Positions 1,834-8,464 of a stretch of 8,464 nucleotides of DNA are shown one piece after another. The stretch's first letter is position 1. Every line of letters starts with the position of its first letter. Made by a program: the position numbers and the translations under genes. Origin of the DNA: Sedimentisphaerales bacterium (lineage in GTDB: Bacteria; Planctomycetota; Phycisphaerae; Sedimentisphaerales; SM23-30); assembly GCA_030636065.1 (NCBI GenBank), contig DAOVXR010000055.1:1-8464 (forward strand), read 5' to 3'. Under the pieces are notes generated by a model. The model was not told where the DNA came from, ran no database searches, and worked only from the letters and a program-made list of their open reading frames with translations.

Positions 1834-3672
1834 TTAAAAGATACCAGGCGGACGTCTTCCAGGTGAGCGCCGTGAGGTACTCTCTTTTTCTTTTGCTTTT
1901 ATTTCTCTGTCGATTTTTGATTTCGTATCGATGAAATATTCCGGCCAGGTATATTTATGGGTACCCAGCCTCTTGATATTCCCGTCATAATCGCGATAAA
2001 CAATGTCCGCACAGATCAGTTCCCTGATCATATTGGGTTTTATATACCAGTGGCTGCTCTTCGGCACAATGTCGATCACCGTAACACCAGTACGATAATC
2101 AACTTCTATAGTCTCAACGTCTTCGTCGATAGCTGCTCTGCGGCCCCTGTCTCTAATCCTGGCTCTGGCTTTGGTTGGATTAAGCGGTTCGTTGACAACG
2201 GTACCGATTTCACTGCCGGAGGCTACGCGAAAAGTCCTTTTGCGCCATCGGCCGCTCTGCCTGCGATAGACTTCCACACTTACACTGGCGTCGGCAACCG
2301 CGCCAATCGAAGTTTTCGGAAAGAACAAAGTACTGCGGGGTACCTGAACCACCTGTTCGAGATCGACGGAGGAGGCCCAGAGAACACGCTGATGCTTGTA
2401 TTTACTCTGGTCTTCCTTACTCCTGAACCAGTTATGACCGGCAATAGGATTGAAAAAACCAACCCGCAAACGATAGGAATATATAGCGCCCGGCTGTGCT
2501 TTGCCGTCGATGGCCCATATATGTATCTTGTCCTGATTAAACTCAGGCGGCAGATTATCACGTTCCGTTGGCGGCCCACCCCGGCGGGAAGGTGTTGTCC
2601 TACGACCCATCATAGGCGGTCCGCCAAATCCGCCTTCAAGTCCCGGCGGCATCCCCATTCCTAATCCCATGTCTTCGGGCATCGCAACGCCGCCTCTTCT
2701 CGAAGACGTTCTGCTGCGCGTAGTGCGGGTACGTGTACGACTTCGGGAACCGGCACCACGTCGGCCCATACCCCGAGCAGCCGCGGCGGAGCCACGACGA
2801 GTCGTCTCCCCGGCCGTTTCTTCCGCTTCCACGGGGTCTGTCCAATCATCCTCCCCGGCAATCTCGTAGGGGAAGGGCTGCATAATCTCAAGCTGAGTAT
2901 TATAGTTTTGTCGGTCTTTTATCAGCAATTCGAAAGCGGTCTGGGACAGTTCGTTGATATTGGCCAGGCTCAACTCGATGTCTTTGACGGCATCTACTTC
3001 AAGGCGGGGAACAATCTCATACTCACTCCAACTGCCATCGGGATTCAGCCGCCTCCGCTGCAATTCCACCAAAGCCACTACCGGATTATATACTTCCAGC
3101 GGGTTTTTGTTGACGCCGGGGCCAAAGCATCTCTCGAAGTTCTCATACAGTTCCTTTATAGAAAAAACCGCCGATACCGTTATCAGGCTTATATCCTTGT
3201 CCAGCCATTCGGCGGTATCCGGATCGAGTTGCGGGTCATCCGGCCCGACCTCGGACGGAACAACAGCAACAACCTGGTCCATATTTATTTTGAGGTTCTC
3301 CAACGCTGAAATCGTCGGCATACTATAATGTCTGATGTCTTCCGGCAAATCGGCAGTGCCTCTGTGAGGAGGGCTAAGCGGGATTCCGGTACCCTCGAAC
3401 GGCTTAACCTGCGCAAATAAATTGTCCGCGAAAAGCTCCACCTCCGGCAGAACACGTGTGTCAGGCGTACTCAAGCTATCCACAATCTCCGCTGCTTTCC
3501 GGGCCGCAAGATCGGCGGCTTCAGAGGCACTGATTGTTTCCTGACCGACCTCCACACCGGGAGAACTGACGAAAAAGGTTACAAATACCCAGCCAAATAC
3601 CACCAGCGCCAAAACTATAATTAGTTTCTCAACATGCGATTCGAATATATTCATACTTTGTTTTTTTGCCAT
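1834..3672 (-). CDS. Membrane-anchored periplasmic protein with Arg/Gly-rich linker, PilP/GspC-like position
   Basis: A 612-residue protein with one N-terminal transmembrane helix (about 17-35) and a large predicted periplasmic part. A helical, acidic stretch (45-90) leads to a mixed domain at about 160-225, then a low-complexity linker (about 283-370) dense in Arg, Gly, Ser, Thr, Met and Pro with SRTRTRTTRSR-type runs. A second folded region (382-580) contains PGAIYSYRLRV (394-404), a fibronectin-like strand pattern, and VDYRTGVTVIDIV (524-536). The tail is basic. The start is supported by AGGA at 3680-3683, seven bases before ATG. It follows the PilM-PilN and PilO-like genes on the same strand but is separated by 341 bases and a hairpin terminator, so it may have its own promoter. 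By order and layout it could be the connector to a secretin (PilP/GspC role). That is inference, as I recognise no named domain. Confidence 0.75.
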   Translation of the reverse strand: MAKKQSMNIFESHVEKLIIVLALVVFGWVFVTFFVSSPGVEVGQETISASEAADLAARKAAEIVDSLSTPDTRVLPEVELFADNLFAQVKPFEGTGIPLSPPHRGTADLPEDIRHYSMPTISALENLKINMDQVVAVVPSEVGPDDPQLDPDTAEWLDKDISLITVSAVFSIKELYENFERCFGPGVNKNPLEVYNPVVALVELQRRRLNPDGSWSEYEIVPRLEVDAVKDIELSLANINELSQTAFELLIKDRQNYNTQLEIMQPFPYEIAGEDDWTDPVEAEETAGETTRRGSAAAARGMGRRGAGSRSRTRTRTTRSRTSSRRGGVAMPEDMGLGMGMPPGLEGGFGGPPMMGRRTTPSRRGGPPTERDNLPPEFNQDKIHIWAIDGKAQPGAIYSYRLRVGFFNPIAGHNWFRSKEDQSKYKHQRVLWASSVDLEQVVQVPRSTLFFPKTSIGAVADASVSVEVYRRQSGRWRKRTFRVASGSEIGTVVNEPLNPTKARARIRDRGRRAAIDEDVETIEVDYRTGVTVIDIVPKSSHWYIKPNMIRELICADIVYRDYDGNIKRLGTHKYTWPEYFIDTKSKIDREIKAKEKESTSRRSPGRRPPGIF

Positions 3673-4013: not shown

Positions 4014-5360
4014 CTAACCGCGTCTCCGGGCGGTCCCTGTAGCCTCCTCGTCCTGTTGGAGCAACTTTTTTACCGGTTCGGGTTTATATTTTTCATAGCC
4101 GCTCTTAAAGAAAAAATACTCACATACAATCCTCATTACCCCCAGCGATGCCGGGCCATAATGATAGCCGGCGGCGATTTCCTGCTCCACATCGACCGGC
4201 TCAAGTACATATTCCAGTACGGAAATCTGGTTGCGTTTGTGTAAGTCGGGGTCTTGTCTGTTATGCTTGAGGCTCTGCAGGGCGTTAATAAAATCGATGA
4301 CGGCAGTTGTATCAATAATAACGGCAAGCTCAAAATGAACCACATCAATAAATTCATCACAGGCACGTTCGGTCATCGAAGTGGTCATGGTCCCGGTCAG
4401 AACTTCCTGCTCATCACGAGAGCCGGAGGAACTTTTCCGAATAACATAATCAGGCAGATAACTCACACTGCCCTGTTCCCGCCGTCCGACCAGGCTTTCC
4501 CGCTGTCTCGAAGATGTTCCGGTCCTCGCTGGTTTGGTGGTAGCCCTGTCGCCGGATGGCGTGGCCGGGCCGCCGGCAAAAGAGATTTCAATTAACCGCT
4601 TAACCGGGTTTTTCAGCACAGACGCGCCACGGTTATTAACCTGGTTGATCGAAAGTGCCACATCCTCCTCGATCCAGGCGGCAATTTGAGTGAACCAGCT
4701 ATCCATCAGCAATGCTTCGGCATTACCGGTGCCGTCGTGGTTTTTCCAGTAATCGTAGCAGCAGAAAGAATCGTGACTTACATATACATTGATTTGACCG
4801 GCCCTGTTACGACGTAGTTCGTCGATAAGTATGTCTTCCGGAGTTTCCATACGCGTCCGGGACACTCCCATGGAGAACGCACCTCCCATACCCCGGCCTC
4901 TATCGACACTCGTTTTGCGATATTCCTCGCGGATTTTATCCTCTTCGGCGGGACTCGGCCGAGGGCCGCCTCCGAGATATTCCCCGATAAATCTGTCGAT
5001 CAATTTGTAGTAAGCATCGGCGAAATTACGATAATAAATAATTTTGCTCGATGCTTCCCAGGGCTTCGGGAAAACCTTTTGGTATATGAGTGGTCGATTG
5101 GATGTTTGTCGGGCCAGCAATATAACCTTTTGGGCGTCTTCGTGTATCCGGTCGCGATTTTCCCGGAGCTTCGCCAGAACATTATTATGGACGGCATTGC
5201 GGGACATAGTATTACTAACCTTATCATACTCGGCCTTAATACCGCTAAAGTCCTTCAGGTTGCCGGTATTGATCATCATGGCCGGAACGAAAAAACCCAC
5301 TCCGGCAAGAAACGCCGCCACACACCCAATGAGAAACAGTCTTTTTTTAATGAAGTTCAT
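4014..5360 (-). CDS. PilO/Amuc_1100-like inner-membrane protein
   Basis: A 448-residue protein with a short basic cytoplasmic start, one transmembrane helix (about 8-29), then a helical, coiled-coil-like stretch (45-85) and a periplasmic region. Residues 249-262 (KNPVKRLIEISFAG) end the first folded half. A polar Ser/Arg/Thr linker (263-318) follows. The last part (335-425) has the strand-helix-strand order of PilO/GspM ferredoxin-like folds: HFELAVIID, then TTAVIDFINALQSL, then QISVLEYVLEPVDV and a final strand near 407-416. Akkermansia Amuc_1100 has the same order. A Gly/Met-rich patch (154-166) and adjacent Cys200-Cys201 are unusual. ATG overlaps the TGA of the PilM-PilN gene as ATGA, so translation is likely coupled. 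It would pair with the PilN half in the inner-membrane platform. Layout and context support this, since pairwise identity to named PilO is low. Confidence 0.75.
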   Translation of the reverse strand: MNFIKKRLFLIGCVAAFLAGVGFFVPAMMINTGNLKDFSGIKAEYDKVSNTMSRNAVHNNVLAKLRENRDRIHEDAQKVILLARQTSNRPLIYQKVFPKPWEASSKIIYYRNFADAYYKLIDRFIGEYLGGGPRPSPAEEDKIREEYRKTSVDRGRGMGGAFSMGVSRTRMETPEDILIDELRRNRAGQINVYVSHDSFCCYDYWKNHDGTGNAEALLMDSWFTQIAAWIEEDVALSINQVNNRGASVLKNPVKRLIEISFAGGPATPSGDRATTKPARTGTSSRQRESLVGRREQGSVSYLPDYVIRKSSSGSRDEQEVLTGTMTTSMTERACDEFIDVVHFELAVIIDTTAVIDFINALQSLKHNRQDPDLHKRNQISVLEYVLEPVDVEQEIAAGYHYGPASLGVMRIVCEYFFFKSGYEKYKPEPVKKLLQQDEEATGTARRRG

Positions 5361-7777
5361 TTAACACCAGTCTCTTCTGAAGAAGTTTTATCCTGATCTT
5401 TCATCTTTATCTTTATCTTGACGCGGAACCAATAATCGTTACGTTCAAGAATCGGCTCACCAGCGGCGTCGAGTTTAATCTCGCCCGTATCCGGATCGGT
5501 CTGGTACTTATTGCTGATTGTCTCAAAGGTAAGAGGATCGATTAACAAGGTTAATTGATTTACCTTAGTCCGCCTGATGGTGGATGTGGCTCTTCCCGGA
5601 CCAAAAGCGGAACCAGCTCTGGAAATTATCGGCTCTTCAGTTTTTGTTATGCCTATGCCGGACGGTTGATCGGTCTGGGAAGCGCCGCTGACCCATCCGC
5701 CTTCCGAGGTATCGAAGAAAAACTTCCGGTCGCCCGGGCCAATATACGTCTTGAAGGGTAGTTTGCCGGCCGTCTCGCTGTCGGCCTGCTGAAATTCGTT
5801 TGTGGGAATATTGACCGTGGGTTTATCGGATAAAGGTTTCTGTCCTTCTTCCGCCTGAGCGAGAATGTCCTGGTCGGTATGACCCATATATTCGAGACGA
5901 TTAAAGAATCCCCATTTTTGTCGAGCTATACCAACTTCGGGCGGATAAAGAAAACTCAACTCATCCTTATGTGTGGTGGAGCCTTCCAGAATCACAATAA
6001 AACCCGGAACCACATCGAGCGACTCAGCATCCTCGTCGGAGCCTGTGCCTCTGGAAGCCCTTCTGGCACCGCCACCGCCTCGCGGCGGCCCCATCATCCC
6101 AGGCATCCCCATCATCCCAGGCATCCCCATCATCCCCGGCGGCCCCATCATATCCATCATTCCCATTCCGCCGCCGGTTGGGCCTGCCCCACCGCGGCCG
6201 GTGCTTTTCTTGGCGATCCGGTCAAATTCCTGGTTGATATTGTCAGTATAGACTATCTGCATACTATGGATAAAAACCTGTTCACGCAAAGAGCGTTTTA
6301 TGGATGCCCTGACAGCTTTGGAATCACCGTCATTAAAGGCCTTGTAAAGCTGTTGCTGTTCGGGATTATTTTTCTCGTTAGGCAGAGTCTCCTGCAGGGC
6401 CTGGATAATCGTCGGGATAAGATTGCGGGAGCCATAGAGTTGGGCGTTACGGTCAATCTCTTCCTTGGCCGTCTGGATTTCACCCTGATATTTGCCCATC
6501 ATGGATTTGTTTTGATTGACCATTTTTTCGCTCTGCTCGATGCTGGATCGGCTTTTGGCGGTGGCATCGGAAACAATATCGTTATGCTGAGCGTAATTCT
6601 TGAAGAAACACATCATACCGGCCAGCACAAAGATAGCGCACGCGGCAACAAACCAGCCTTTCTTACGCTTCCACTGGGTCTGACGTATAACCTCACGGGG
6701 CAGCAGATTACTTGTGATTATGGTTTGTCCGATGCCCTGTAACGCCAGGCCGTAAGCAACCCCCATAGTAGGCAAATGAGTGGCGAACTGACTGGCCGAG
6801 ACATCAGAGGTCAACTGTAAAGAATCGAAACTGTCTAACCGCTTGACCGGCATAGAAAGGCTCTGCTGCAAAAATTTAATCAGGCCGGGCAATTTCATGG
6901 CGTTGCCGAGCGCGATAACTTCACGGAACTTCGCGTCCCGATTGCCGCTGCTGTAGAACCCAAGGGAACGCTGTATCTCGGCGGCCAGATCGGCGAAGAC
7001 CGAACGCATAGCCTGAAAAATCTGCCTGGCATGCTTGCTGGTTCGGGCGGTGCGCTTGATGGCCTCGGCCTTGGTAAAGCTGAGCTTAAAAGCCTTTTGA
7101 ACAGCCGCGGTGAACTGATTGCCGCCGATGGGAATACTTCGCTGCCAGACACGCATACCATCGGCTATCACCAGATCAGTATTTTCGGCGCCGATATCGA
7201 GTGTTACAATCGCTTCTTTCGCGTCCGGTCTCTGGAGGTGCTTCTGGTCGTACCGAAGAAAATTATACAGGGACATAGGTGCCATCTGAACAAGATTTGT
7301 CATACAGCCGACCTCGGTAAAAGGCTCAAGGGCCTGCCGGACCAGATCACGCTTAATGGCAAAAATCCCCACCAGTATCTCCGAGACATCCTGGGTCTCA
7401 AATGTCTGCCAGTCCCATTCGACGTCCTCGATCTCGAATGGTATCTGCTGAATTGCTTCGTAGCGAACGAGTTCGGGAATGCGTTTGCTTTCGACGGGCG
7501 GCAGTTTGATAAACCTGGCGAAACTGCTGTGGCCCGGCACTGAAACCACAACAGCGGAATTGGCCACTTCGTGTTCGTCGAGGAATTTACGCAAAGCATC
7601 TATCACCAGCTCGGTCCGTTCCTGGGCTGTAACATCGGGCTGAGAAAGGATTTTTTTATGTTCGATGACAGCGAAATCAAGTACTTCCGCGCCTTCGTCT
7701 CCCATTCCGAGCTTGATAGCCTTAAGGGTGCAGTTGCCTACGTCAATTCCCCAGGCGATTTTGGCTGCTTTTGCCAT
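5357..7777 (-). CDS. pilM: PilM-PilN fusion, GspL-like type IV pilus/secretion assembly protein
   Basis: An 806-residue protein, over twice the usual ~350 of PilM. Residues 1-345 are the cytoplasmic actin-like ATPase: phosphate-1 GIDVGNCTLKAIKL (10-23), phosphate-2 LDIGAENTDL (193-202), and adenosine motif ALGNAMKLPGL (289-299). Then comes SNLLPRE (356-362), the sequence with which a separate PilN docks into PilM, followed by basic residues and a transmembrane helix (375-391), a coiled coil (about 400-445) and a periplasmic region interrupted by a Gly/Met/Pro-rich insert (526-572). The C-terminal part is unrecognised. PilM-PilN thus sit in one chain, as in GspL of type II secretion. The start at 7777 is chosen because GAGG (7787-7790) lies nine bases upstream and MAKAxKIAWGIDVG is the natural PilM beginning. 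An in-frame ATG at 7792 has no ribosome binding site. It is first in the cluster and overlaps the next gene by four bases. Confidence 0.9.
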   Translation of the reverse strand: MAKAAKIAWGIDVGNCTLKAIKLGMGDEGAEVLDFAVIEHKKILSQPDVTAQERTELVIDALRKFLDEHEVANSAVVVSVPGHSSFARFIKLPPVESKRIPELVRYEAIQQIPFEIEDVEWDWQTFETQDVSEILVGIFAIKRDLVRQALEPFTEVGCMTNLVQMAPMSLYNFLRYDQKHLQRPDAKEAIVTLDIGAENTDLVIADGMRVWQRSIPIGGNQFTAAVQKAFKLSFTKAEAIKRTARTSKHARQIFQAMRSVFADLAAEIQRSLGFYSSGNRDAKFREVIALGNAMKLPGLIKFLQQSLSMPVKRLDSFDSLQLTSDVSASQFATHLPTMGVAYGLALQGIGQTIITSNLLPREVIRQTQWKRKKGWFVAACAIFVLAGMMCFFKNYAQHNDIVSDATAKSRSSIEQSEKMVNQNKSMMGKYQGEIQTAKEEIDRNAQLYGSRNLIPTIIQALQETLPNEKNNPEQQQLYKAFNDGDSKAVRASIKRSLREQVFIHSMQIVYTDNINQEFDRIAKKSTGRGGAGPTGGGMGMMDMMGPPGMMGMPGMMGMPGMMGPPRGGGGARRASRGTGSDEDAESLDVVPGFIVILEGSTTHKDELSFLYPPEVGIARQKWGFFNRLEYMGHTDQDILAQAEEGQKPLSDKPTVNIPTNEFQQADSETAGKLPFKTYIGPGDRKFFFDTSEGGWVSGASQTDQPSGIGITKTEEPIISRAGSAFGPGRATSTIRRTKVNQLTLLIDPLTFETISNKYQTDPDTGEIKLDAAGEPILERNDYWFRVKIKIKMKDQDKTSSEETGVK
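6091..6144 (+). repeat. 18-bp tandem repeat inside the PilM-PilN gene
   Basis: Two identical 18-base units (6091-6108, 6109-6126) and a third diverged one (6127-6144). On the coding (minus) strand they encode GMMGMP-type hexapeptides in the Gly/Met/Pro-rich insert. Such a unit is prone to length change by slippage without shifting the frame. Confidence 0.85.
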
Positions 7778-7790: not shown

Positions 7791-7878
7791 ATTTATTAAC
7801 TTTGATGCAACCGCCAAAAGTCCGAAAAACGCTGCAAAAACAACAGCAACGCTCCAGAATCAAGGGGGCAAAATACTT

Positions 7879-8194: not shown

Positions 8195-8464
8195 ATGAGC
8201 CAAAATAATTTATGGCCGAGTGAGTTGCCAAACCTGACAATCGAACGACTGGGAAAAAACACCTTCGATTCGCCACTAAAAAAGGGGACAAGGCGGTTTG
8301 TGGATGACAATGAAAAAATACTGGTCTATTCGCTCAGCGATAAAGTAAAAGACTGCATAGATAAGACAGGCGAAGTGCCGTCGTTCGAGCGGGCCGGGCC
8401 GAGAGAAAAGATATATTTCGATCCGGCAAAACTCAATTGCGGTATCGTAACGTGCGGCGGCCTC
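8195..8464 (+). CDS. pfkA: 6-phosphofructokinase, N-terminal part (runs off the window)
   Basis: The first 90 codons of a phosphofructokinase, which phosphorylates fructose 6-phosphate to the 1,6-bisphosphate in glycolysis. About 75 residues of N-terminal extension precede the conserved start of the catalytic domain: REKIYFDPAKLNCGIVTCGGL (from residue 70), the last part being the beginning of the G-G-x-x-P-G nucleotide-binding loop. A long extension plus the KIYFDP-type strand is typical of the plant/trypanosome/spirochaete-like long forms and not of short bacterial PfkA. Whether ATP or pyrophosphate is the donor cannot be told, as the deciding residues lie beyond the edge. GGGAG at 8184-8188, six bases before ATG, supports the start. 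It is divergent from the pilus-like cluster and probably unrelated in function. Confidence 0.85.
   Translation, partial: MSQNNLWPSELPNLTIERLGKNTFDSPLKKGTRRFVDDNEKILVYSLSDKVKDCIDKTGEVPSFERAGPREKIYFDPAKLNCGIVTCGGL

Follow-up and report, generated by a model that had tools for sequence, protein, structure and literature searches.

In known pili, the binding of PilN to PilM is difficult to study as a separate step. Of the systems that most resemble the one considered here, the Amuc_1098-1102 locus of Akkermansia muciniphila, or MUL2, is described in excerpts of PMC13174399 and PMC10688800, and is proposed to attach to glycans through a type IV-like pilus (PMC13174399). Fusions of PilM with PilN have already been published, as excerpts of the relevant papers state, for Campylobacterota pili and for GspL/PulL, and the layout is therefore not unique. 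In our searches of open-licence papers, none was found to report a PilM-PilN fusion from Planctomycetota or to refer to Amuc_1101 as such a fusion. Here, we analyze a stretch of 8,464 nucleotides from a Sedimentisphaerales bacterium (contig DAOVXR010000055.1 of assembly GCA_030636065.1, hereafter the window), one gene of which encodes the actin-like protein PilM and the start of PilN in a single chain. This fusion is real and conserved, and its product is probably an inner-membrane platform subunit of a Planctomycetota type IV filament machine, related to Akkermansia Amuc_1101.

The first half of the chain is PilM with certainty, by profile, solved relatives and fold. Between positions 5357 and 7777 the plus strand is interrupted by stops, and the open frame lies on the minus strand, from 7777 to 5357. 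Another in-frame ATG occurs upstream, at 7792; the start at 7777 agrees with the consensus of the relatives, which begins with MA. The assignment of residues 1-345 to PilM in a first-pass annotation, made from the letters of the DNA, is borne out by Pfam PF11104, which matches residues 10-347 (E 3.5e-35), and by TIGR01175, which matches residues 8-348 with 154.6 bits (cut-off 133); among three further fused proteins tested, P0048 falls narrowly below that cut-off, at 131.1 bits. The solved relatives of this half are PilM of Myxococcus (E 2.1e-35) and Thermus (2.8e-21) and a Pseudomonas chimera (1.2e-16), and Foldseek, searching with residues 2-360 of the predicted structure, found the PilM fold.

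As for the junction, relatives were sought in two protein searches, which yielded 4822 and 2643 chains; 120 were listed from each. Relatives were admitted only at 0.55-1.75 times the query length, which leaves most free PilMs outside both lists, so that the lists document the conservation of the join but say nothing about the frequency of free PilM. At the junction, NLLP is present in 115 of the 120 chains listed from the first search and in 80 of 119 listed from the second (one chain shorter than 430 residues went uncounted), and the looser pattern [LI][LIMV]P in 120/120 and 116/119, respectively; P0096 matches this pattern at a different spot, and P0138, scored as a miss, has LLP at the junction. 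Those chains of the second search apparently lacking NLLP that were inspected carry IKLLP, IRLLP or VVLIP, and the true departures are P0150 (RLVT) and P0143 (DLTP). In an alignment of the window protein with 236 of the 240 listed relatives (P0138 and P0096 were left out, as were P0186 and P0238, which are too short), Leu358 and Pro360 are each conserved in 236 of 237 chains. A motif present by chance is ruled out by this conservation, and an assembly artefact by the occurrence of the same join in 236 relatives. The first-pass view of a PilM that runs directly into SNLLPRE at residues 356-362, with the docking motif of PilN retained in the same chain, is thus upheld by profile matches and by a junction kept across relatives.

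The tether between PilM and the motif is equally regular. A pattern search placed 10 residues between GLAL and the motif in 118/120 and 115/120 listed rows, and a different spacing in none. The pattern missed seven rows. Four of them (P0042, P0143, P0150 and P0232) show the same ten-residue tether by eye, as does P0138, a protein of 795 residues whose PilM is preceded by about 220 extra residues, once these are allowed for; P0096 matches the pattern elsewhere in its chain, and P0238 is short. Segments of 14 residues starting at positions 344-348 contain no insertion or deletion in any of the 236 aligned relatives, and residues 351-356 vary freely in their letters; such changes affect 29% of rows for segments starting at 390 and 87% at 400. 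Fixed length as a proof of docking is weakened by the folded PilM domain, where 200 of 346 segments have insertions or deletions in at most 1% of rows. The tether therefore behaves like folded core rather than a loose linker, which leaves docking unproved.

We compared the second half with free PilNs of Planctomycetota. Fifteen candidates were chosen because they combine a motif close to their N-terminus with a hydrophobic stretch, and the seven of NLLP type, which open with MITINLLP, MIQINLLP, MIRVNLLP or similar, were used for the profile comparison; the others carry IDLLKG or IDFLP. Columns 2-115 of the fused half are matched, in register from the motif, with a probability of 87.7 for the group of the window (118 rows, the window protein and 117 of 120 relatives) and 96.9 for the second group (82 of 120). 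Control profiles scored lower: 0.5 to 10 for PilO, 47.6 and 34.3 for the corresponding half of GspL, 7.7 and 10.1 for IDLLKG-type PilN, 0.9 and 6.0 for IDFLP-type PilN, and about 12 for ORF3 of the window. As in PilN, the docking motif precedes a single membrane helix, which was read from the sequence. By these profiles, a derivation from PilN is well supported at least to about residue 465.

The link to Akkermansia comes from the family model of Amuc_1101, NF045709, which scores 233-249 bits across the junction in the four fused proteins tested, compared with 131-155 bits for TIGR01175. NF045709 gave far less for three other proteins: 103 bits for a free PilM, 66 for a second free PilM and 38 for a GspL-like protein. 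It also comes from the neighbouring genes. Adjacent to the fused gene, ORF2 has the predicted fold of Amuc_1100, which we used instead of its sequence link to Amuc_1100 or PilO, rejected as too weak. ORF3, which contains a Gly/Arg/Ser-rich stretch, gave neither an NCBIfam family nor a solved relative in our searches. Behind ORF3, a tetratricopeptide repeat (TPR) secretin was recognised in 7/7 long frames submitted, of 10 such frames seen in 66 related loci.

Several results weigh against reading the window protein as an Amuc_1101-related platform subunit with a PilN half. No secretin, pilin or ATPase gene was recognised in the window, and the cut-off of NF045709, 650 bits, is well above the 249 bits of the window protein and is reached in none of the 149 planctomycete genomes sampled. 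In the profile comparison, rows were chosen for N[LI][LI]P and free PilNs for a similar motif near the start, so that the match at the motif is partly built in, and ORF2, run as a control, scored 77.9 and 42.4 through its membrane helix alone. Once the first 13 PilN residues are removed, the window group falls to 5.9 and the second group holds at 84.0, in register; the motif thus carries the match of the window group, and only the second group is supported beyond it. Past about residue 465 no profile of PilN, GspL or PilO matches, and PF05137 gives no hit in the window protein or in the 19 members searched. We do not take this last miss as a refutation because PF05137, a model of 78 positions whose matches, in two chains, were confined to the C-terminal part of those chains, also misses the free PilN L081 (the other of the two free PilNs tested, L089, scored below its cut-off). 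The assignment of residues 350-450 to PilN, which the first-pass annotation had staked on a profile match, accordingly stands against the profile of free PilNs and, taken literally, fails against Pfam; what is kept is the stretch from the motif to about residue 465, in register with free planctomycete PilN, and what is lost is any match beyond it. A protein that took only the motif, the membrane helix and the long helix from PilN, as an anchor for PilM, and whose large periplasmic part is a different domain, would suit the silence of the profiles past residue 465, the dependence of the window group on the motif and the long inserts. The order of helices and strands in the model, which seems to resemble a ferredoxin-type domain of PilN, argues otherwise, and we consider such an anchor somewhat unlikely.

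In the AlphaFold2 monomer, residues 351-360 have a predicted local distance difference test score (pLDDT) of 94, against about 51 for residues 391-410; the first Foldseek match of the model is 5eou_B, superposed through residue 361, and the alignment to this Pseudomonas chimera crosses the join, with NLLP set on NLLP. Docking of N-L-L-P within its own chain, one of two arrangements proposed in the first-pass annotation, is favoured by this monomer model and by the superposition, and stands as a prediction. The other arrangement is a domain swap, in which N-L-L-P docks into the neighbouring PilM of a ring and the tether stitches the ring together, in the same protein and the same machine. PilM and PilN are thought to form a ring (according to an excerpt of PMC8389850), and a fixed tether length fits a swap as well as docking in cis; such confidence at residues 351-360 of a monomer is unexpected for a loose arm, and a swap strikes us as unlikely. 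A more distant possibility is that the protein is GspL-like, either a component of type II secretion or, as first proposed, a natural halfway form between the designs of pilus and type II secretion. Its layout is that of GspL, PulL being a PilM-PilN fusion (in an excerpt of PMC10191384), and weak matches to PF05134 occur in 12/19 members (best E 0.0015). We built a tree of 50 PilM domains, 32 of them fused, with only two GspL-like rows and without Verrucomicrobiota rows, the organisms named for the relatives of the second search being planctomycetes or their kin. In this tree, 31 of the 32 fused domains form one clade (support 100/99), outside which lies the long-branched L114; seven separate PilMs that adjoin NLLP-type PilNs form another clade, and the GspL-like rows are distant, on long branches with the second free PilM. 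In an approximately unbiased (AU) test, a clade of fused and GspL-like domains, with L114 left out, costs 12.2 log units and is not rejected (p 0.143), which counts for the GspL reading.

Gene context bears on the same question. By tblastn, no PilB, PilC, GspE or GspF was found in the flanks of 80 fused-gene loci (at most 10 kb, often cut by contig ends), whereas the same queries match 7 of 38 other loci. Ten regions were fetched in a survey of other machines and eight were read; L083 and L084 entered only the selection of PilNs and the profile comparison. Two of the genomes examined have, separate from the fusion, a GspL-like protein of 500-524 residues among GspE-, GspF- and pseudopilin-like genes and a secretin, some of these labels being our own assumption. 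The tree and this context speak against the intermediate, with the tie to GspL left by the AU test, and we regard the GspL reading as very unlikely. Separate PilM and PilN, which the first-pass annotation suggested seeking in Planctomycetota, do exist: PilM_2 gives three to seven matches in 8/8 genomes reached through fused-gene loci, and separate pilM and pilN were found beside the fusion in at least six of eight. One pilus-like locus in fusion genomes combines separate PilM, PilN and PilO with a secretin and what we take to be a ParA-like protein (other labels there are likewise partly presumed), and a further locus has separate PilM, PilN and PilO.

The features of the fused gene, its neighbours and a candidate motor are as follows.

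Table 1. Features of the window (position 1 is its first nucleotide) and, in the last row, of related loci
Feature	Position	Strand	Remarks
Fused PilM-PilN protein	5357..7777	minus	806 residues, counted from the start at 7777 (MAKAAK)
PilM actin-like domain	6734..7756	minus	residues 8-348
SNLLPRE, PilN docking motif at the junction	6692..6712	minus	residues 356-362
Helix 361-398, basic stretch then membrane helix	6584..6697	minus	secondary structure from the model; membrane nature read from sequence
Long helix 405-447, read as coiled coil	6437..6565	minus	helix from the model; coiled coil read from sequence
Periplasmic alpha/beta part	5402..6421	minus	residues 453-792; model strands 501-511, 592-601, 688-695, 782-792
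Gly/Met/Pro-rich disordered insert	6029..6196	minus	residues 528-583; pLDDT <50
ORF2, PilO/Amuc_1100-like fold (predicted)	4014..5360	minus	448 residues; ATG overlaps the fused-gene stop by four bases
ORF3	1834..3672	minus	612 residues; occupies the position of Amuc_1099 in Akkermansia
PilB-PilT-PilB cluster	L119:5035-11277, L120:6700-11387, L123:5831-12059		PilC in L119 and L123; prepilin-like genes in L119

Low-complexity inserts like those of the fused protein and ORF3 are found in many of 19 aligned relatives. The periplasmic part of P0048 has a CxxC...CxxC zinc-ribbon-like insert at residues 635-658, with a weak rubredoxin-like match (E 0.016). Three loci (L108, L112 and L114) show fused PilM-PilN, a protein of 272-315 residues and then a frame of 855-941 residues (one gene further in L114); the frame of this class from L108, the sole one submitted, is matched by secretin and TPR models. 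Upstream of the fused gene, a product with GCKVN near its start is encoded by one of the two nearest frames in 37 of 66 loci (e.g., L006, L010, L015 and L116), presumably a tRNA methylthiotransferase. The window differs, its upstream gene being a divergent frame at 8195-8464 with no Pfam match. At 559-1503, on the minus strand, a frame of 314 residues whose start looks lipoprotein-like by eye gave no match in Pfam.

The join is widespread in Planctomycetota. NF045709 has matches in all 149 sampled genomes, free PilMs included, and 86 of the 149 contain an uninterrupted frame of at least 530 residues scoring at least 180 bits; this count was made by hand from the listing, the frames being taken as fused without individual inspection. 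As for the motor, six genomes with one large contig have 9 to 21 T2SSE matches each. Beside the PilB-PilT-PilB cluster in L119, L120 and L123, no PilM, PilN, PilO or secretin was recognised. By position, the three genes are adjacent in 14 of 15 genomes and split in G006, and an in-frame stop interrupts two of the matches. Co-occurrence of this cluster with the fusion is uninformative as evidence: relatives of PilT and of the first PilB are present in 15/15 genomes, including G033, which lacks a strong fused match. We infer, by completing the machine, that the PilB-PilT-PilB cluster drives the fused platform.

Together, these findings suggest how the platform might work. The N-L-L-P segment would sit in the groove of its own PilM, and docking in cis would hold PilM at the membrane in a 1:1 ratio, always bound to PilN. 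The periplasmic part may pair with ORF2, and ORF3 may link to the TPR secretin, with power presumably supplied by PilB/PilT ATPases encoded elsewhere. By analogy with what is proposed for the Akkermansia locus, the likely job of this machine would be the assembly or movement of a pilus-like attachment fibre.

The fusion is most useful in that it naturally tethers a ligand to its receptor at a fixed length and in that it connects to the system of Akkermansia. Since the ligand is fixed ten residues from its receptor in every aligned relative, docking in cis and swapping can be distinguished by direct test. The fusion also extends a closely followed locus of Akkermansia (Amuc_1100, glycan attachment) into Planctomycetota. 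In planctomycetes, dextran is bound by fibres that come from crateriform pits (as an excerpt of PMC5394234 reports), and the literature excerpts name no machine for this fibre-bound uptake of polysaccharide. Tools for deleting genes are available in the laboratory strain Planctopirus limnophila (according to an excerpt of PMC11958385). A link between the fused machine and these fibres is offered purely as a hypothesis. In its boldest form, Planctomycetota and Verrucomicrobiota would have in common an ancient type IV filament machine for the handling of glycans, with PilM permanently tethered to its own PilN ligand and a separate PilB-PilT-PilB-PilC-prepilin motor, that builds the dextran-binding fibres of crateriform pits, a scheme we think improbable as a whole.

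How does the fusion compare with known systems? In Campylobacterota type IV pili, a single gene combines pilM and pilN in most clusters, as here (in an excerpt of PMC11870540); these clusters are pilMNOPQ, and the likeness is drawn from their published description. GspL, PulL and EpsL are likewise single chains made of a PilM-like domain, a membrane helix and a periplasmic domain. The fusion differs from GspL in its place in the tree (a grouping of the two being tolerated by the AU test), in the separate GspL-like gene of two genomes and in a PilN motif that is still readable. The separate PilN of Planctomycetota begins like the fused junction, with the motif followed by basic residues and a membrane helix; unlike the fusion, separate PilM and PilN are two genes, with PilM in another clade. 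The engineered PilM:PilN1-12 chimera 5eou has the same join by design, with a gap of 11 residues between GLAL and NLLP against 10 here; unlike the window protein, it is man-made and stops after the docking peptide. The Amuc_1101 family of Akkermansia is the best family match of the fused protein across the junction, and the order 1101-1100-1099-1098 is mirrored in related planctomycete operons by the fused gene, ORF2, ORF3 and the TPR secretin. This likeness is drawn from the family model and gene order, solved Amuc_1100 being the only Akkermansia sequence compared directly, and there are differences from Amuc_1101: 806 residues here against a model of 608 positions, the Gly/Met/Pro-rich insert and a window without a recognised secretin. 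The fusion looks like an old planctomycete relative of the pilus-like system of Akkermansia, whose Amuc_1098-1101 is the nearest known system, and not like a bridge from pili to type II secretion.

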